Shown piece after piece: positions 6,166-14,306 of a DNA stretch of 34,580 bases (position 1 is its first letter; every line of letters begins with the position of its first letter). Both the position numbers and the translations under genes were made by a program. This stretch comes from an uncultured Legionellales bacterium (GTDB lineage: Bacteria > Pseudomonadota > Gammaproteobacteria > Eutrophobiales > Eutrophobiaceae). The notes beneath the pieces were generated by a model, which saw only the letters and a program-made list of their open reading frames with translations, did not search any database and was not told the DNA's origin. Where the stretch lies: positions 1-34,580 of the forward strand of contig CAJWRJ010000018.1 in assembly GCA_913046215.1 (NCBI GenBank). The letters run 5' to 3'.

Positions 6166-6246
6166 ATGTGCCCAAGATGTAATACAACGATAATAGTCAC
6201 TAGTTCACTATCAGTAAATAAACAGTTAAATAGAGAGGAAACTTTA

Positions 6247-8265
6247 ATGATTTCAAGTGCTTTTTTGCCAATTGGTTTAGGTTTATTTGGACTTTTTACA
6301 GCAGTATTTGTTTTTTTAAACATAAAAAAATCACCTGCTGGCGATGGAAAACTTAAAGAAATTGCTGATGCCATTCATCTGGGTGCGATGGTCTTTATGA
6401 ATAGTGAATATAAGCGTTTGGCTATATTCTGTGTTATCTGTATTAGTGCAATTTGGTTCTCCGAACTCGGACCAAATACAGCTTTGGCTTTTTTACTTGG
6501 AGCGATCTGCTCTGGCTCTGCTGGTTATTGGGGTATGTACACAGCAACCCACGCCAATGTCAGAACGGCGGTTGCAGCCAACACAAAAGGGGCCTCTGAA
6601 GCACTCAATATCGCTTTTTTTGGTGGGTCTATTATGGGGCTAACTGTTGCCTCAATGGGTCTATTTGGTATTGGTATTCTCTATTATTTTTTCGCAGGAG
6701 ACTCTCACACCATTCATGCAATTGAAGGATTCGCCATGGGCGCCTCCTCGGTAGCATTATTTTCACGTGTTGGTGGAGGGATCTTCACGAAGAGCGCTGA
6801 TGTTGGTGCGGATTTGGTGGGTAAAGTGGAAGCGGGGATTCCTGAAGATGACCCAAGAAACCCTGGTGTGATCGCAGATAACGTCGGTGACAATGTCGGT
6901 GATGTAGCTGGTATGGGTTCGGATATTTTCGAATCATATTGTGGCTCAATGATTGCAACTATGGCGCTTGCAGCAACCATGACTTCAACAAAAATATTCG
7001 ACTTGGCTCCAATCGGAGGACAAGAAATTTTAACCTTCATGCCTTTAGCGCTCGCTTCAATTGGTCTAATTTGTTCAATGATTGGAATTTATTCTGTAAA
7101 ACTCTTCTCCTCAAAAAGTCCTGAGGTCGCTCTTCGAATTGGCACAATGGGCTCTTCAATAATTTTTATTATTGCCGCATATATTTTAATTAAAGAATTA
7201 GGTGTTTCTGTTAATGTTTGGATTGCAGTATTGACAGGGGCTGTAGGTGGAATTGTTATAGGGCTTGTTACAGAATATTACACAGGCGGAGCACCTATCA
7301 AGAAAATTGCCAAGGGAGGAGAAACTGGTCCGGCCACAATCATGATTACTGGTCTTGCTGTTGGAATGCAATCTGTCGCCATACCTGTTATCACAATTTG
7401 TGCAATCATCTTCATAGCAAGCCATTTTACAGGACTATATGGTGTCGGTGTTGCCGCAGTCGGTATGTTAAGTACGGTTGGCATAACCATGGCAATCGAT
7501 GCATATGGACCGGTTGCAGATAACGCTGGCGGTATAGCTGAAATGGCAGAACTGGGTAAGGATACTCGCGAGATTACCGACTCGCTTGATGAGGTTGGAA
7601 ATACTACTGCGGCAATTGGAAAAGGTTTTGCAATTGGTGCAGCCGCCCTTGCGGCATTGGCATTGATCAGCGCATACATAGAAAAAGTATCTCTTGGAAA
7701 TGAGGATTTCATATTAAGAATAAATGATCCTCTAGTTTTAAGCGGGATGTTTCTTGGCGCTATCTTTCCCTATTTGGTCAGTTCAATCACCATGACCGCA
7801 GTAGGAGATGCTGCGTTTGATATGATTAAAGAAATACGACGTCAATTCAAAGAAATTCCTGGGTTAATGGAAGGCACGGGTAAACCAGACACAGCGAGAT
7901 GTGTTGATATTGCAACTCGTGCAGCATTAAGGCGCATGATTTTACCTGGCTCTCTAGCCGTACTTGCACCAGTTGTAGTTGGCTTTGGCCTGGGTCCTCA
8001 AGCGTTAGGTGGAATGCTTGGTGGCGCACTTATTTGCTGTGTAATGATGGCGCTAATGATGGCAAATGCAGGCGGTGCATGGGATAACGCAAAGAAGTAT
8101 GTTGAAAAAGGAAATCTAGGCGGGAAGGGATCAGATGTCCATAAAGCTGCCGTTGTGGGAGATACCGTTGGAGATCCTCTAAAAGATACATCGGGGCCAT
8201 CAATGAATATTCTTATTAATGTTATGGCAATTGTTAGTTTGGTAATTGCACCATTATTAGTTTAA
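6247..8265 (+). CDS. hppA: Membrane-bound ion-pumping pyrophosphatase, K+-dependent type
   Basis: Integral inner-membrane enzyme that couples hydrolysis of inorganic pyrophosphate to export of H+ and/or Na+. From the ATG at 6247 it is 672 aa with many membrane helices. The PPi site is clear: [19 protein letters not shown] then [18 protein letters not shown] (about 185-226). The determinant segment reads GNTTAA (about 451-456): alanine at the position that is lysine in K+-independent enzymes, so this one should need K+. The start at 6247 is preferred over an in-frame ATG at 6166 because AGAGAGGAA (6232-6240) lies 6 bases before it and the promoter would put the transcript start downstream of 6166. 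A terminator follows. Which ion is pumped cannot be read with certainty. Confidence 0.96.
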
Positions 8266-8289
8266 TCCATTAAATTAAAAAATAAATAA

Positions 8290-8316
8290 AGCCGTATTTT
8301 TGATACGGCTTTTTTT
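8290..8316. terminator. Bidirectional intrinsic terminator between hppA and the dsbA-like gene
   Basis: An 8-bp perfect stem AGCCGTAT / ATACGGCT (8290-8297 and 8303-8310) with loop TTTTG is followed on the plus strand by a run of T (8311-8316). Reading the minus strand, the same stem is followed by TTATTTATT, so it can also stop transcripts from the pfp/dsbA-like side; it lies just beyond the TAA of that gene. Confidence 0.85.
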
Positions 8317-8932
8317 ATATGGATGACTCAATCCTATTTAACATGGTATTAGCGTTAAGATAATCAGATTGTATTCTGATTTCTTTTTCCTTGTTTATAA
8401 AAAGTAAACTCGGTAGTGAGTTTAAATCTAGTTTTTTACACTGTTGAATTTCTTCTTTTAAAATTCTATCTGTTTCTGATGAGATAACATCCTCTGAAAA
8501 TTTATTTTTATCTGCACCAATCTCTTCTGCTAATTCAATTAGTGTTTCATAGTCTGATGGGTTGCGAGCATTCAAGTAATAAGCTTTTTGAATTGCTAAA
8601 GTCATTTCCTTATCGAATATTTTTTTTTGTTTTCGCGCGGCAATTACGGCGCGACATGCAGGATAAGTGCTGCGACGTGGAGCACATTCTTTCCAAAAAT
8701 TATAATTAAATTTTGTTTTGGGTACCTTCTTTTCAATAGCACGCCAATTTTCTAATACATACTCACGAATATTATCTGGCATAGGGATATCGCTATCAGG
8801 AGCAAGACCACCCAACAATCGGATGACATTAATTTCTTTTGGCAGCTTTTCAATCAATGCATCCATTGATGGTCTAAATGCCCAGCACCAACTACACATT
8901 GGATCATGAGCATAATAAAGTATCTTTTTCAA
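8315..8932 (-). CDS. DsbA-family (thioredoxin-fold) dithiol protein, cytoplasmic
   Basis: A 205-aa thioredoxin-superfamily protein of the DsbA/FrnE-like branch. The N-terminal strand leads to DPMCSWCWAFRPS, a CxxC redox pair at Cys13 and Cys16, and NSLPSLLFINKE near 172-183 supplies the expected cis-proline loop; the helical insert lies between. There is no signal peptide, so it should act in the cytoplasm as an oxidoreductase or isomerase; the substrate is unknown. The start is TTG (8930-8932) with no convincing ribosome-binding site; the first in-frame ATG falls at the CxxC itself and would remove the first strand. It lies 14 bases downstream of pfp and is probably co-transcribed with it. 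Confidence 0.85.
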   Translation of the reverse strand: MKKILYYAHDPMCSWCWAFRPSMDALIEKLPKEINVIRLLGGLAPDSDIPMPDNIREYVLENWRAIEKKVPKTKFNYNFWKECAPRRSTYPACRAVIAARKQKKIFDKEMTLAIQKAYYLNARNPSDYETLIELAEEIGADKNKFSEDVISSETDRILKEEIQQCKKLDLNSLPSLLFINKEKEIRIQSDYLNANTMLNRIESSI

Positions 8933-8946
8933 AACGAATATTAAAA

Positions 8947-10212
8947 CTATAATTTGAAGTCTGTCTTAACAATCTTTGCCACTGACTTATTTTTAAGCGT
9001 TACATACTCTGGCATCCCATTTTTATAGCTTGGATAATCCTCACCATCAATCAATGGCAGCAAGTAACGGCGACAAGCTTCGGTAATTCCAAAACCGTCA
9101 TCTGTTATAAATTCTTTTGGCATCATCTTTTCAACATTAGCGACATCTTCAAGTTTAGCCATACCTACTTCCCATACGTAAGGGCTATCTGATTTCCTAA
9201 TAATTGTTGGCATAACTGCATTCTCGCCAGCAATTGCCATATCAACAGCTGCCTTACCCAAAGCATAAGCCTGTTCAACATCTGTTTTTGATGCAATATG
9301 TCTTGCTGAACGCTGCAAATAATCTGCTACTGCCCAGTGATACTTATAGCCCAAGGCATCCTTGATCATATTAGCAACGACAGGTGCCGCTCCACCAAGT
9401 TGAGCATGCCCAAAAGCATCTTGTGTGCCCTGTTCTGCAAGAAATTTTCCATCAGGCCAGCATGCACCTTCGGATACCACGATTGAACAATATTCGTATT
9501 TCTTAACGTTGGCATCTACCTTTGATAAGAATGCTTTTTGATCAAATTTTATTTCGGGGAAAAGGATTACAATTGGAATATCATTATTTTCATCTGCTGC
9601 TAATCCACCAGCAGCAGCAATCCAGCCTGCATGTCGACCCATAACCTCGATAACAAATACTTTTGTTGATGTTTTCGCCATTGATAAAACATCAAAAGAT
9701 GCTTCTCTTGTGGATATTGCAATATATTTTGCAACCGAACCAAAACCAGGGCATACATCTGTTATTGGCAAGTCATTGTCGACTGTTTTCGGGATATGGA
9801 TTGCCTGAATTGGAAAATTCATTTCTGCCGAAAGTTTTGAAATTTTATAACAAGTATCGGCAGAATCCCCTCCACCATTATAGAAAAAGTAACCTATGTT
9901 ATGTGCTTTAAAAATTTCTATGAGTCTCTTATATTCGGCTAAATTCTCTTCGAGTCCTTTCAATTTATATCGACACGACCCAAAAGCACCTGATGGCGTA
10001 AATTTTAGGGCTGCTATATCAGCATCTGATTCTTGGCCTGTATCAATGAGATCCTCTGTTAATGCTCCAATAATGCCATTTCTTCCCGCATAGACGTTAT
10101 GAATTTTTTCGGGATGCTTTCTTGCTGATTCGATAACACCACAGGCACTAGCGTTAATAACAGAAGTAACGCCGCCAGATTGTGCGTAGAAGGCATTTTT
10201 AGTCTGGGCCAT
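8947..10212 (-). CDS. pfp: Pyrophosphate-dependent 6-phosphofructokinase
   Basis: Reversible phosphorylation of fructose 6-phosphate using PPi instead of ATP. The 421-aa protein has family markers: NGGGDSADTC (112-121) and IPKTVDNDLP (140-149), where Lys142 replaces the glycine of ATP-dependent enzymes (PGTIDND), plus MGRHAGW (191-197). Asp116 corresponds to the Gly104-to-Asp switch associated with PPi use; the preceding position is glycine instead of the usual aspartate. A good ribosome-binding site (AGGAG, 10223-10227 on this strand) precedes the ATG. The gene is convergent with hppA, with only the dsbA-like gene between. In methanotrophs and thiotrophic symbionts, Pfp is proposed to act also on sedoheptulose phosphates and to replace FBPase in the Calvin cycle; that role here is an inference. 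Confidence 0.95.
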   Translation of the reverse strand: MAQTKNAFYAQSGGVTSVINASACGVIESARKHPEKIHNVYAGRNGIIGALTEDLIDTGQESDADIAALKFTPSGAFGSCRYKLKGLEENLAEYKRLIEIFKAHNIGYFFYNGGGDSADTCYKISKLSAEMNFPIQAIHIPKTVDNDLPITDVCPGFGSVAKYIAISTREASFDVLSMAKTSTKVFVIEVMGRHAGWIAAAGGLAADENNDIPIVILFPEIKFDQKAFLSKVDANVKKYEYCSIVVSEGACWPDGKFLAEQGTQDAFGHAQLGGAAPVVANMIKDALGYKYHWAVADYLQRSARHIASKTDVEQAYALGKAAVDMAIAGENAVMPTIIRKSDSPYVWEVGMAKLEDVANVEKMMPKEFITDDGFGITEACRRYLLPLIDGEDYPSYKNGMPEYVTLKNKSVAKIVKTDFKL

Positions 10213-10332: not shown

Positions 10333-11829
10333 ATGAAGGTACTTAATTTAATGTGTTTTTCTAATATAAATTGTAAAAAGATTATAGGGAAACTTATTAT
10401 TCTATATTTATTTCTTCCAAGCATATTATTTGCTGGAGATGAAAATATTATATTGCCTGATATGGGTGATTCTTCCAGTAACGTATTTTCACAGAAATAT
10501 GAAAAAAGACTCAGCCAGATGTTCATGAAACAAATTAGGCGTTTTTCTGTAATCTTTGATGACCCAGAAATAGAGTCATACATACAGTCCCTTGGTAGTA
10601 ATTTGGTATCTAATAGTGAGAATGCAAAACAATCATTCAAATTTATGGTAATTAATGATTCGTCAATTAATGCGTTTGCAGGACCTGGGGGTATTATCGG
10701 TATCAATAGTGGAGTAATTTTGCATTCCACTGATGAGAGTGCGCTTGCCGGAGTCGTTGCTCACGAAATTGCACATGTGACACAAAAACATTTAGCTCGT
10801 GCATTTGAAGAAGCAAAAAAATATAGTCTCCCAACAGCTGCGGCAATGATAGGGGCTTTAATCATGGCTACCCAAAACCCCTCTGCGGGGCAAGCGATGT
10901 TAAGCGGTATATCTGGTCTCAATACACAAAATCAAATTAACTTTACTCGTGATAATGAAGAAGAAGCCGACAGAATAGGATTAAAGTTATTAGAGAAATC
11001 TGGTTACAACCCGCGTAGTGTGCCAGTATTTTTTGAAAAACTACAAAAAATATCAAAATTTACACAAACTGATACTCCTGAATATTTTCGTACTCACCCT
11101 CTAACAACCTCGCGCATTGCAGATGCCCGCTCAAGAGCGGAATCATACCCGAAAAAGCTATTTTCAAATTCACATGGATATGAACTTGTGCGTCATAAAT
11201 TAATCGCGATGACAATGAAAAAACCAAAGGATGCTATATTATTTCTACGTAATAAACTTGAAGAAAATAAAAGTGGATTAAAAAGTGAATTATATATCCG
11301 ATATGGTTTAGCCTATGCATACTTATTAGATAATGCATTTTCTCACGCAAATCAACAAGTCAAACATTTACTTAAAAATGACGACAGTGATCCTGCCTTC
11401 CTTTTATTAGCGGCTAGGCTTAGTAGTGCGCAATCAAACTACGAGTCAGCGCTAGACATTTATGCAAAGGCCTACGGACTTTATCCAGAACATAAACCTA
11501 TACTAGTAGCTTACACTAGAGCATTGATTGATGTAGAAAAAGCAAAAGAGGCCCGAGAGATTATAAAGCATTATGAACGTTATCATCCTCACGACTTAAA
11601 CTCATATTCATTACTAGGACAAGTTGAAGCTATGCTCGGTAATGAAATTGAAACTGCTATAATCCATTCCGAATACTATTATTTATCAGGCGAAACTAGG
11701 CTGGCAATTGAAAAATTAAAGTTTATAAAACAAAGATACAAAATGGATTATTATCAGGAACAGCGTGTAATGGCTCGCCTATCTGAACTTGAATATGAAT
11801 TTGAATTGGAAAAAGACATTAAACTATAG
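10333..11829 (+). CDS. bepA: BepA-like M48 metallopeptidase with TPR domain
   Basis: Periplasmic zinc protease and chaperone of the BepA (YfgC) type, which helps LptD mature or degrades it when assembly stalls. The 498-aa protein has a signal sequence (hydrophobic core about 19-34, IIGKLIILYLFLPSILFAG), the family start LPDMG (41-45), the zinc motif HEIAH (144-148), the downstream glutamate ligand in NEEEADR (208-214) and RTHP with His255, matching the regulatory His-switch of E. coli BepA. TPR-like helices fill about 300-490. The loop GPGGIIGINSGV is as in relatives. It appears to lead an operon with soxY (11 bases later), soxZ and a CPBP protease. The start is uncertain: an ATG at 10351 is also possible. 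Confidence 0.92.
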   Translation: MKVLNLMCFSNINCKKIIGKLIILYLFLPSILFAGDENIILPDMGDSSSNVFSQKYEKRLSQMFMKQIRRFSVIFDDPEIESYIQSLGSNLVSNSENAKQSFKFMVINDSSINAFAGPGGIIGINSGVILHSTDESALAGVVAHEIAHVTQKHLARAFEEAKKYSLPTAAAMIGALIMATQNPSAGQAMLSGISGLNTQNQINFTRDNEEEADRIGLKLLEKSGYNPRSVPVFFEKLQKISKFTQTDTPEYFRTHPLTTSRIADARSRAESYPKKLFSNSHGYELVRHKLIAMTMKKPKDAILFLRNKLEENKSGLKSELYIRYGLAYAYLLDNAFSHANQQVKHLLKNDDSDPAFLLLAARLSSAQSNYESALDIYAKAYGLYPEHKPILVAYTRALIDVEKAKEAREIIKHYERYHPHDLNSYSLLGQVEAMLGNEIETAIIHSEYYYLSGETRLAIEKLKFIKQRYKMDYYQEQRVMARLSELEYEFELEKDIKL

Positions 11830-11840
11830 GTGTAGCTTTT

Positions 11841-12293
11841 ATGATACGCAGGGTCTTCCTAAAAATATTAACTTCGAGTACTGTCGTTCTTGTTTCCGGG
11901 CTTACAACTCCCATAAGGCTTTTAGCTGAATGGAATGAATCAGCTTTTTCAGCAAAAAATATTGATAGCGCAATTAATAGCTATTTTCCTAATAAAGAAA
12001 TAAAAAGATCAGATAGAATTAAAGTAGAAATCTACGACGAAGTTGAAAATGGTGCTGTTGTTCCTGTAAAAATTAACACTGACTTGGAAAATGTCAAAAC
12101 GATTACCATTTTTGCAGATAAAAATCCTAATCCATTAATTGCTAATTTTAATCTTGGAGAAACTACGCTTGGTTTTGTTTCAACAAGAATAAAAGTTAGT
12201 GAGCCCTCAAATATTATCATCATTGTTAATTCTAATAATACATTGTACATGGCAAAAAAATTTGTCGTTGTTCATGAAAATGGGTGTGGTTAA
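11841..12293 (+). CDS. soxY: Sulfur carrier protein SoxY, Tat-exported
   Basis: SoxY, with SoxZ, holds sulfur intermediates as a thioadduct on a C-terminal cysteine during periplasmic thiosulfate oxidation. The 150-aa protein opens with a twin-arginine signal (IRRVFLK then a hydrophobic stretch to about residue 24). The body is an immunoglobulin-like beta fold (VPVKINTDLENVKTITIF; the NPNPLIANF region). The carrier cysteine is Cys149, in the ending NGCG; the family norm is GGCGG, so the swinging arm is one residue shorter and one glycine is lost. Start choice is supported by AGGTG at 11828-11832. soxZ starts directly after the stop. soxXA, soxB and soxCD are not nearby. Confidence 0.9.
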   Translation: MIRRVFLKILTSSTVVLVSGLTTPIRLLAEWNESAFSAKNIDSAINSYFPNKEIKRSDRIKVEIYDEVENGAVVPVKINTDLENVKTITIFADKNPNPLIANFNLGETTLGFVSTRIKVSEPSNIIIIVNSNNTLYMAKKFVVVHENGCG

Positions 12294-12608
12294 ATGAGTT
12301 CGTCTATTAGATTAAAAACAAAAATAAGAGATGATATTACAACAGTTAGAGCAATCATTCGTCACCCCATGGAAACAGGTTTTAGAATAGATGACGATAC
12401 TGCAAAGCTTGTGCCTGAACATTATATAAAAAAAATAAATTTTAAACATAATGGTAAAACGATATTTTCTTGTGACTGGAGTCGTGCTGTTTCTAAAAAC
12501 CCTTATCTTTCTTTTATGTTTAGTGATTCAAAAATTGGCGATAAGATAGAAATATCATGGCTCGATAATATCGGAAACACCGATAAACTAGAAACTTTAA
12601 TAGAATAA
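12294..12608 (+). CDS. soxZ: Sulfur compound chelating protein SoxZ
   Basis: Partner of SoxY in the periplasmic SoxYZ carrier heterodimer; it has no signal peptide and is exported with SoxY by the Tat route. The 104-aa protein shows SoxZ landmarks: IRHPMETGFRID (near 22-33), VPEHYIKKINFKHNG, and SKNPYLSFMF (about 67-76). The ATG begins directly after the soxY TAA (no gap), so translation is probably coupled. Length is normal for the family. A CPBP protease gene follows after 17 bases. Confidence 0.95.
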   Translation: MSSSIRLKTKIRDDITTVRAIIRHPMETGFRIDDDTAKLVPEHYIKKINFKHNGKTIFSCDWSRAVSKNPYLSFMFSDSKIGDKIEISWLDNIGNTDKLETLIE

Positions 12609-12625
12609 TATTCTCGAAAAATTAA

Positions 12626-13501
12626 ATGCGCACAATTATTTATTTTAGTCTGATTGTTATAATTACATTTATATTGGGTGCAATATTAGCCTACCCATTA
12701 AAATTACTTCTCGATCCAGTTTTTGAACTTGCTTTTCGCAAATACCTAAATTACGCAACATTAATTAGTGGAATAATTACCTGCTCAGTTTATCTAAAAA
12801 TAAATAATTTACTTACATATGAGGCCTTCGGTTTTGGTGGCGAAACCAATAAATTTCTAAAACGCTTTATATATGGCTTCCTCTATGGGCTGCTTATCAT
12901 GTCTATAATCGAGACTATTTTATTTATTTTAAAAATACATGAATTGGATGTGCATCGAAGTATCTGGTTATTTTCTAACCTTTCTTTTATTGCAAAAGCA
13001 TTAATTACAGGACTGTTAATTGCATTTATTGAAGAATTAATTTTTCGAGGAGCATTCTTTTCTGGTCTTTATAATAGAGCAGGAGCCCTCATTGCTATTA
13101 TATTCACTAGCTTTATATATTCAGCAGTTCACCACGTTCGGTATCCAGACCTACCGGCAGATACTGTGATTGAATGGTCAACAGGCATAACAATGATGCC
13201 TGATGCATTTCGCCGTTTCCATGAATGGGCTATTGCTGACTATTTTCTAACCCTATTTATTTTTGGAGTGCTGCTAGGTTTGTTACGCTTAAAGCATCGA
13301 AATATCGCTGCATGCATAGGTCTGCATGCTGGTGTTGTGGTGCTTATTAAGATAGCTGACTATTTTACAAACAGGTCAAGTGAAAGTAATTTTAGCTATC
13401 TTGTTAGCCCATATAATTCTACATTCGGATGGATTAGCTTTTTAGTCATCTTATTTTTTACAATTTTTTATTTTCTAAAATTACGAAAAAGTACTAAGTA
13501 A
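12626..13501 (+). CDS. CPBP-family intramembrane metalloprotease
   Basis: A 291-aa polytopic membrane protein with the three CPBP (Abi/CAAX-type, Rce1-like) motifs: EELIFRG (Glu136, Glu137, Arg141), SFIYSAVHH with His169/His170, and GLHAGVV with His234. About eight hydrophobic segments are visible; the last is near 268-286 and is followed by a short basic tail KLRKSTK. The family cleaves substrates within the membrane; in bacteria, members act in bacteriocin immunity or envelope processes, and the substrate here is unknown. It sits last in the bepA-soxY-soxZ run, convergent with the tupA-like gene 10 bases away and without a recognisable terminator between. Confidence 0.9.
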   Translation: MRTIIYFSLIVIITFILGAILAYPLKLLLDPVFELAFRKYLNYATLISGIITCSVYLKINNLLTYEAFGFGGETNKFLKRFIYGFLYGLLIMSIIETILFILKIHELDVHRSIWLFSNLSFIAKALITGLLIAFIEELIFRGAFFSGLYNRAGALIAIIFTSFIYSAVHHVRYPDLPADTVIEWSTGITMMPDAFRRFHEWAIADYFLTLFIFGVLLGLLRLKHRNIAACIGLHAGVVVLIKIADYFTNRSSESNFSYLVSPYNSTFGWISFLVILFFTIFYFLKLRKSTK

Positions 13502-13511
13502 AAATAAAAAA

Positions 13512-14306
13512 TTAGTATGGATGAAAAAGTATTTCTTCATGTAATTTATAATTTCTTATAATACTCTTTACTGACTCGCTTCTTAAAAAATTTGAATAAT
13601 CTCTAGCTAGATTAATATTAATATGTGGATACTTTTCTGGAGACACTAAAATGACATGGTAGGGATTTGATAATTCATTTTTATCTTCGAAAATTATATT
13701 TAATTCTATCCTATCTTTATAAGCAAGATATGTCCCTCTATCAGTTAATGTATAGGCCTGTTTTTCATTAGCAATAATTATTGTTTGTCCCATAGCCTGA
13801 CCCACAGAAAGATACCAAGATCCTTTCGGTATAATGCCCATTGCTTGCCACAAATTATTTTCTTTTTTGTGTGTACCAGAATCATCGCCACGGGAAATAA
13901 ATGTTTGATTAGCATTGATCAATTTTGACAGTGCCTCTGAAATATTTTTACTACCCTTAATGTCGGCAGGATCATCTTTAGGTCCTATCAAAACGTAGTC
14001 ATTTTTCATAATGGGTAAACGCTCTATACCAAAACCATCTTCCACGAGCTGCTCTTCCTCATCGGGAGCATGAACAAGAATTAAATCAACATCTCCATTT
14101 CTCGCCAAGCGAATTGCTTTGCCGGATCCAACGGCAACAACATTTAGCTCTATACCATATCTATCTTCAAATAATGGGTTTATCTTTTCAAGAAGCCCTG
14201 AATTATCGGTACTCGTTGTAGTGGCCAATAATAAGCGATTTTTATCTGCAGCAAAGCATATAAAACTCAAAAACGCGAGAGGAATGAACAGTAAAAAACG
14301 AAGCAT
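13512..14306 (-). CDS. Periplasmic tungstate-binding-type protein (TupA-like)
   Basis: Substrate-binding protein of the TupA/PBP-like family, which captures oxyanions such as tungstate for an ABC importer. The 264-aa protein has a signal peptide (MLRFLLFIPLAFLSFICFAA), then LLLATTTSTDNSGLL (25-39) and ISRGDDSGTHKKE (137-149), the two family segments that contact the anion. AGGAG lies four bases before the ATG. No permease or ATPase (tupB, tupC) is adjacent, so it is an orphan here; the importer could be elsewhere, or the protein could bind another oxyanion. tRNA-Lys is 55 bases upstream on the same strand and may share the transcript. Confidence 0.85.
   Translation of the reverse strand: MLRFLLFIPLAFLSFICFAADKNRLLLATTTSTDNSGLLEKINPLFEDRYGIELNVVAVGSGKAIRLARNGDVDLILVHAPDEEEQLVEDGFGIERLPIMKNDYVLIGPKDDPADIKGSKNISEALSKLINANQTFISRGDDSGTHKKENNLWQAMGIIPKGSWYLSVGQAMGQTIIIANEKQAYTLTDRGTYLAYKDRIELNIIFEDKNELSNPYHVILVSPEKYPHININLARDYSNFLRSESVKSIIRNYKLHEEILFHPY

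Follow-up and report, generated by a model that had tools for sequence, protein, structure and literature searches.

The DNA considered here is the whole of contig C18 (CAJWRJ010000018.1) in the assembly of an uncultured Legionellales bacterium (GCA_913046215.1; 1.40 Mb in 52 contigs, 98.8% complete). We call this stretch of 34,580 nucleotides the window. It carries soxY and soxZ, the two genes of a sulfur carrier, between the genes of two envelope proteases. All four genes are on the + strand in the order bepA-like, soxY, soxZ and CPBP, and the gaps between their open reading frames (ORFs) are 11, 0 and 17 bases. A preliminary description of the sequence had reported this order and these gaps, and both are confirmed by the ORFs and by family profiles. 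A scan of the sequence found 14 promoter-like sites, which is fewer than in shuffles (mean 21.9), and 2 terminator-like sites (shuffle mean 2.4).

The bepA-like gene (10333..11829) encodes 498 residues with a signal peptide, an M48 zinc metalloprotease domain containing HEIAH, and C-terminal tetratricopeptide (TPR) repeats. PF01435 (Peptidase_M48) matches with 114 bits. We call the gene BepA-like because its NF052400 (BepA) score of 400.4 bits is under the equivalog cut-off of 570. Residues 33-487 align to solved BepA of the E. coli type (6sar) as a full-length match (E 6.9e-71), and HExxH and the EADR and THPL stretches are kept. The product may act on LptD and the beta-barrel assembly machinery (BAM) complex as BepA does. 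The soxY gene (11841..12293, 150 residues) has a twin-arginine N-terminus, MIRRVF, with the arginines at residues 3-4, and ends in HENGCG. Codons 12282..12290 give the last three residues G-C-G, so the carrier cysteine (residue 149) is penultimate. PF13501 is passed with 93.1 bits (gathering cut-off 28.4), and TIGR04488, the profile of SoxY with a true GGCGG end, gives 117.6 bits, below its equivalog cut-off of 125. The start codon of soxZ (12294..12608, 104 residues) abuts the soxY stop, and no signal peptide was seen on its product, which passes TIGR04490 (115.4 bits, equivalog cut-off 76) and scores 112 bits with PF08770. The last gene (12626..13501, 291 residues) encodes a CPBP/Rce1-like intramembrane protease with an EELIFR stretch. 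It passes PF02517 (56.2 bits, gathering cut-off 22.4), and a sequence search found no relative of solved structure.

The natural comparison is with the SoxYZ of thiosulfate oxidisers such as Paracoccus pantotrophus and Allochromatium vinosum (TIGR04488/TIGR04490). The actions of SoxAX, SoxB and SoxCD on the arm of that carrier are set out in PMC5336275; papers are cited here by such numbers and from excerpts of their text. Both have genes for a SoxY-SoxZ heterodimer, a twin-arginine signal on SoxY only, one arm cysteine, and a SoxZ above the equivalog cut-off. The window differs in its lower SoxY score, its NGCG end, the loss of canonical invariant residues, and the lack of a match to SoxB, SoxA or SoxC.

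Sox genes in the genome and its family

The preliminary description had noted that SoxXA, SoxB and SoxCD do not accompany soxYZ in the window. Profile searches of the whole genome for SoxB, SoxA, SoxC and DsrA found nothing, so for SoxA, SoxB and SoxC the observation extends beyond the window; no search was made for SoxX, nor for SoxD on its own. It had also been suggested that this is a second copy of SoxYZ. That idea falls, as soxY of the window is the sole PF13501 match in the genome. Judged by SoxB, SoxA, SoxC or DsrA, the genome does not have a Sox thiosulfate oxidation system.

Families, genomes and fetched loci are labelled f, G and L below; f1 is the family of the window's genome, and G000 is that genome. 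In all five congeners searched, a GAF/HD-domain gene lies downstream of htpG, and after it come soxC and a cytochrome c gene. The same place in G000 (contig C4, L121:7053-9234) reads htpG, GAF/HD, tlpA, aroC and a major facilitator superfamily (MFS) gene, with 4 bases between GAF/HD and tlpA. Apart from the clean absence of soxC and its cytochrome gene, the locus is intact. Congeners also have a fused SoxYZ-like gene (TIGR04557) adjoining a pyrroloquinoline quinone (PQQ) dehydrogenase gene. A PF13501 search did not find it in G000, and it would have been detected, since PF13501 gives the fused gene of L105 102.6 bits. Fused carriers of this kind correspond to SoxYZ-S2/S4 of Sudo et al. (PMC11237559). 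They resemble the window's pair in being SoxYZ outside thiosulfate oxidation, and differ in being a single fused gene with other neighbours and in belonging to another clade.

One can imagine that SoxB and SoxAX are present and fall in the gaps of a metagenome-assembled genome, as G000 is in 52 contigs. We consider this exceedingly unlikely. The assembly is close to complete, and soxCD is missing from a locus that is demonstrably intact. Further, the set of 37 f1 genomes, which includes G000, has no SoxB over the cut-off in any member and no SoxA over the cut-off in 36, the exception being G007. DsrA is likewise found in none of the 37.

The preliminary description left it to the relatives to decide whether the neighbourhood is more than an accident, and they uphold it. 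A separate SoxZ is found in 26 of the 37 f1 genomes, and bepA is directly upstream of soxY in 24 of these 26. The two exceptions are G012, where the contig ends there and bepA is at the end of another contig, and G007, where soxYZ is beside soxA elsewhere. CPBP follows soxZ in 20 of the 26. The other 11 genomes do not have a separate SoxYZ. Their bepA loci were examined in 8 cases, and in 6 of them (G010, G016, G021, G022, G028, G036) bepA is directly followed by CPBP, as it is in G007. The CPBP gene thus goes with bepA and not with soxYZ, as it stands directly behind bepA in loci that lack soxYZ. The locus is marked by a divergent neighbour outside the operon, the pyrophosphate (PPi)-dependent phosphofructokinase gene pfp (8947..10212, - strand; NF010675 641 bits, cut-off 273). 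It is at the same place in f1 genomes and in L060 of family f12. Because G047 of f12 shows pfp-bepA-soxYZ in the same surroundings, soxYZ was probably lost in the f1 genomes without it rather than gained in the others.

SoxC is over its cut-off in 29 of the 37 genomes, including all five congeners, and a cytochrome c gene follows soxC. This raises the prospect of a shortened Sox pathway where SoxYZ and SoxCD oxidise sulfane sulfur, with SoxCD lost recently from G000. We regard it as improbable. SoxYZ and SoxC occur together in 22 f1 genomes, but SoxC is without bepA-linked SoxYZ in 7, the reverse holds in 4 (G000, G017, G025, G029), and 4 have neither. The soxC of f1 can also adjoin a different, fused SoxYZ that is absent from G000, and the site of soxCD in G000 is empty. 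On these three grounds SoxYZ is weakened as a candidate partner of SoxCD in f1. The fused gene is directly upstream of soxC and the cytochrome c gene in L105 (5904-8712), L107, L108 and L114, and that of L105 scores 217 bits with TIGR04557 (cut-off 140). As no f1 genome matches SoxB, fused SoxYZ and SoxCD could possibly form a SoxB-free unit of their own.

Linkage of bepA and soxYZ across the class

The wider set is 370 genomes of the class, each at least 90% complete. SoxY (PF13501, fused forms included) is found in 199, a bepA-like match in 315 and SoxB in 160; SoxY is found without SoxB in 46. There are 64 genomes with both the bepA and SoxY places among the matches listed, and the two are within 4 kb in 36 of them. 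The pairing is more than chance. SoxB-bearing genomes have bepA-cytochrome c-soxYZ-soxA-soxB or parts of it (e.g. G124, G142, G119, G371, G310, G109, G238, G132, G388). SoxB-less genomes with bepA-soxYZ are found outside f1 in f12 (L060), f61, f86, f100, f105 and f118. The linkage is an old and common gammaproteobacterial arrangement, and the observation is real and not an oddity of a single window. A tree of bepA is consistent with joint descent (one change, with a support of only 18).

The arrangement is not universal. There are genomes where bepA occurs without soxYZ (e.g. G273, G383, G176, G143), and f90 and f70 are mixed. In the SoxB-bearing genomes G111, G076 and G123 the genes after bepA are those of the cytochrome c and of SoxA, and no soxYZ stands between these two (e.g. 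L218, L245, L250). We also considered a general rule by which BepA goes with a sulfur carrier of any kind. The idea came from Pseudomonas PA1005, which we take to be a bepA homologue adjoining PA1006. PA1006 of Pseudomonas aeruginosa is a TusA-like, persulfide-modified protein and so a sulfur carrier like SoxYZ, but it is cytoplasmic, has an unrelated fold and is tied to molybdenum (PMC3568144, PMC3568122). The rule is unsupported: TusA is absent among the genes after bepA in the 10 loci without soxYZ that were scanned. Those genes were type II secretion ATPase-like, RDD, thioredoxin, cyclic nucleotide (cNMP)-binding, flagellar rod, MlaA and unknown.

The pairing is already partly in print. 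Sudo et al. 2024 (PMC11237559) describe SoxY-S1b of Sedimenticola and thyasirid symbionts, a divergent SoxY beside genes of beta-barrel assembly-enhancing proteases. By the authors' account it has a one-residue change in the VTIGGC signature, belongs to clade 1 and serves thiosulfate oxidation. The likeness to the window is a divergent SoxY beside bepA-type protease genes. The difference is that the hosts are sulfur oxidisers with Sox genes, and SoxY-S1b is at most a candidate member of the SoxB-less clade described below. The second report is a table row in PMC11267869. In A. vinosum the consecutive tags Alvin_2110 (peptidase M48), Alvin_2111 (SoxY) and Alvin_2112 (SoxZ) rise together on pyrite by 2.50, 2.92 and 2.40, values that we read as log2 from the stated five-fold rise of SoxYZ. 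SoxB, SoxA and SoxX (Alvin_2167-2169) rise by 1.07-1.22. Here too the difference from the window is that these three are present, elsewhere in the genome; the excerpts offer no remark on the peptidase. This response is the only expression evidence that we found for the pairing, and it comes from a SoxB-bearing species.

The SoxY arm and the SoxB-less clade

The C-terminal arm was compared in 102 separate, uncut SoxY sequences, i.e. the window's and 101 others. Dropped from the count were 10 fused SoxYZ (that of G265 was also cut) and 2 rows cut by the end of a contig or stretch. The sampling is non-random, as L129-L158 and most later loci were taken from the top of the score-ordered matches listed. 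Of the 53 sequences from genomes with SoxB, 49 end in GGCGG, as against 4 of the 49 from genomes without it (Fisher 2.4e-19, uncorrected for relatedness). The 'other' end is found in 11 of the SoxB-less families, GGCGG in 2, and 2 are mixed. We added 20 further bepA loci from SoxB-bearing genomes where SoxY was ranked lower or not matched to bepA, and all 8 readable SoxY there end in GGCGG. Solved SoxY (2nnc, 4uwq) aligns to the same C-terminal end with GGCG.

The four SoxB-less genomes with GGCGG are G208, G315, G261 and G196. The first three possess SoxA, and their SoxB may merely sit in assembly gaps, which would make them cases of the artefact that was weighed above for G000. The four SoxB-bearing sequences without GGCGG are from G093, a second copy in G050, and the bepA-linked second copies of G038 and G351. 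The carrier cysteine is kept in all 49 SoxB-less rows, and it is missing in only two rows, those of G038 and G351. These two belong to f3. Their linked SoxY (L090:7524-8015, end VVIGGDA; L211:5997-6488, end VYAGGNA) has the cysteine replaced in an intact frame that overlaps bepA and soxZ, and both genomes carry SoxB and a canonical SoxYZ elsewhere. The SoxY of their relative G180, which has no SoxB match, ends in GGCA.

A tree was built from SoxY minus the arm joined to SoxZ (93 rows, f1 thinned from 26 to 17) by a quick search with SH-aLRT support only. One group of 25 rows (SH-aLRT 93) unites the SoxY of f1, f12, f61, f86, f105 and f118. None of its genomes has a SoxB match, and 24 of the 25 rows are flagged as bepA-linked. 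SoxA over the cut-off is absent from the tested members in f12, f86, f105 and f118; f61 was not searched for SoxA. Rows of f100, f3 with G105, G086, and G068 with G365 fall outside. We recognise one main SoxB-less clade of SoxYZ, however many times the non-GGCGG end arose. Several residues that are invariant or nearly so in 49 canonical SoxY are lost in 34 sequences of the clade: in window numbering 65 P, 67 I, 68 A and 145 T, and also 143 K and 146 I. By contrast all 34 retain E69, G71, P75, N95, V144, G148, C149 and the twin arginine.

The ratio of nonsynonymous to synonymous divergence (dN/dS) was measured between the window and four congeners at synonymous distances of 0.86 to 2.6. It is 0.136-0.200 for soxY and 0.101-0.149 for soxZ. 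The neighbours give 0.096-0.138 (bepA), 0.068-0.120 (CPBP) and 0.044-0.061 (pfp). SoxYZ of the window is under purifying selection. In the f3 pair G038/G351 nonsynonymous differences amount to 26% in the cysteine-less SoxY and 24% in bepA, against 13% in the canonical SoxY that both genomes also carry; the linked genes are saturated at synonymous sites. Constraint thus persists on the cysteine-less SoxY, and it is weaker than on the canonical one.

These data bear on the view that SoxYZ is a hitch-hiker or slow relic, left in the bepA operon after Sox was lost, retained chiefly through the structure of the operon and doing little or nothing. We think this unlikely. It would explain why SoxYZ is gone from 11 f1 genomes while bepA-CPBP remains in 6 of the 8 examined, why the arm has drifted, and why the cysteine is lost in two f3 copies that evolve faster than the canonical SoxY of their genomes (pN 0.26 against 0.13). 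A relic is not expected to keep intact frames with dN/dS of 0.14-0.20 for soxY and 0.10-0.15 for soxZ at synonymous distances of about 1 or more. Nor does it fit that all 34 clade rows retain the cysteine and the twin arginine, or that the unit spans six families.

Roles of the carrier and neighbouring genes

The reading that we favour, and to which we give about an even chance, is that SoxYZ carries sulfur or thiols in the periplasm, no longer tied to SoxB and SoxAX, and is co-produced with BepA. The bepA-soxY-soxZ-CPBP genes would be a conserved operon-like unit transcribed together. SoxYZ would be exported by twin-arginine translocation (Tat) as a periplasmic heterodimer, with its single carrier cysteine on the C-terminal arm. 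The unit would go back to an old bepA-(cytochrome c)-soxYZ gene order of Gammaproteobacteria, and SoxAX and SoxB would have gone from the window's lineage. The arm and the residues that do not vary in SoxB-bearing genomes would then have drifted, while selection kept the cysteine, the residues that mark the fold and the twin-arginine signal. The cysteine would be loaded with sulfur, perhaps as a persulfide, by some donor that is not thiosulfate via SoxAX. It would pass the sulfur on without SoxB, acting as a carrier or buffer of sulfane sulfur or thiols. SoxYZ would be made with BepA, which serves outer-membrane protein assembly and clearance, because the same envelope conditions need both.

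The preliminary description had proposed another sulfur donor. This is indirectly supported, as the lack of a match to SoxB, SoxA or SoxC, the altered carrier arm and the purifying selection point to a job outside thiosulfate oxidation. This suggests that the carrier has a second job beyond thiosulfate oxidation. The donor itself did not emerge. Its other proposal, that envelope quality control may be linked to the load on the sulfur carrier, is consistent with the depth of the bepA-soxYZ linkage and with the co-induction in A. vinosum (PMC11267869).

Several points weigh against a freed sulfur carrier. Neither a donor nor an acceptor was found, where no search was made for SQR, Fcc, TsdA, sHdr, SoxX, SoxD or SoxH. 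The carrier is dispensable, being gone from 11 of the 37 f1 genomes. Its soxY evolves a little faster than bepA and at about three times the rate of pfp. The cysteine-less, bepA-linked SoxY of the two SoxB-bearing f3 genomes misfits a purely cysteine-based job. As for the tail pattern, 26 of the 49 SoxB-less rows are from the single family f1, and G196, with no match to SoxB or SoxA, keeps GGCGG and, within what was searched, is a real exception. Across phylogenetically independent pairs the contrast does not reach significance (4 pairs, p 0.5). The approximately unbiased test does not reject a single clade of all non-GGCGG SoxY (p-AU 0.42), so one origin could explain the pattern. Given these two results, we do not claim that GGCGG was lost repeatedly and independently along with SoxB.

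The cysteine-less f3 copies leave room for a protein-partner role of the bepA-linked SoxYZ. In its direct form, SoxYZ would be BepA's client, adaptor or thiol helper during the assembly of outer-membrane proteins, for example in LptD disulfide exchange. This is quite improbable. BepA of E. coli works without SoxYZ. The linked SoxYZ of SoxB-bearing genomes has the canonical arm and adjoins soxA or soxB, so it can be explained as an ordinary Sox carrier. The idea does draw on the deep linkage in genomes with and without Sox, on the joint rise of the M48 peptidase, SoxY and SoxZ in A. vinosum (PMC11267869), and on the role of BepA in LptD maturation, which includes disulfide rearrangement (PMC8423444). 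The cysteine-less SoxY could also mean a protein rather than a carrier role. A bolder and speculative form, on which we would place little weight, makes BepA and SoxYZ the two parts of a single envelope system that predates thiosulfate oxidation and can be separated from it. SoxYZ would supply thiol or sulfane-sulfur chemistry, or a protein partner, for the BepA-guided assembly of the outer membrane, again perhaps in LptD disulfide exchange. The gammaproteobacterial Sox carrier would then still be wired to outer-membrane quality control, and genomes without SoxB and SoxAX would show the bare system with an arm freed from SoxB.

The gene pairing is a known, partly reported arrangement. The new part is the SoxB-free SoxYZ clade with an altered arm. 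Full-text searches of the open literature did not turn up a SoxB-free class of SoxYZ marked by its SoxY end. This matters since soxY and soxZ serve as metagenomic markers of thiosulfate oxidation. The marker misleads because the SoxYZ clade in six families has no SoxB match, and the last residues of SoxY may distinguish the SoxB-linked from the SoxB-free kind. If the carrier works without SoxB, it offers a clean setting for studying other roles of the SoxYZ cysteine and why the gene of an outer-membrane protease travels along. The pairing exists in the model sulfur bacterium A. vinosum (PMC11267869), so it is testable there.

Other genes of the window can be listed briefly. The gene at 735-1232, which lies 9 kb before bepA, is lptE-like as judged only by its place between leuS and holA; LptE partners LptD, a client of BepA. 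The block holA-proA-nadD-rlmH-maf-hppA-pfp-bepA recurs in relatives. The part from 6166 to 10212 has the genes of a sodium- or proton-pumping pyrophosphatase and of the PPi-dependent phosphofructokinase with a DsbA-like thioredoxin-fold gene between them, and it is conserved in f1. After CPBP, on the opposite strand, is the gene of a TupA-like substrate-binding protein (13512-14306; NF041772 228 bits, below the cut-off of 400). No permease or ATPase gene was seen beside it, and it is kept at that place in many f1 genomes.

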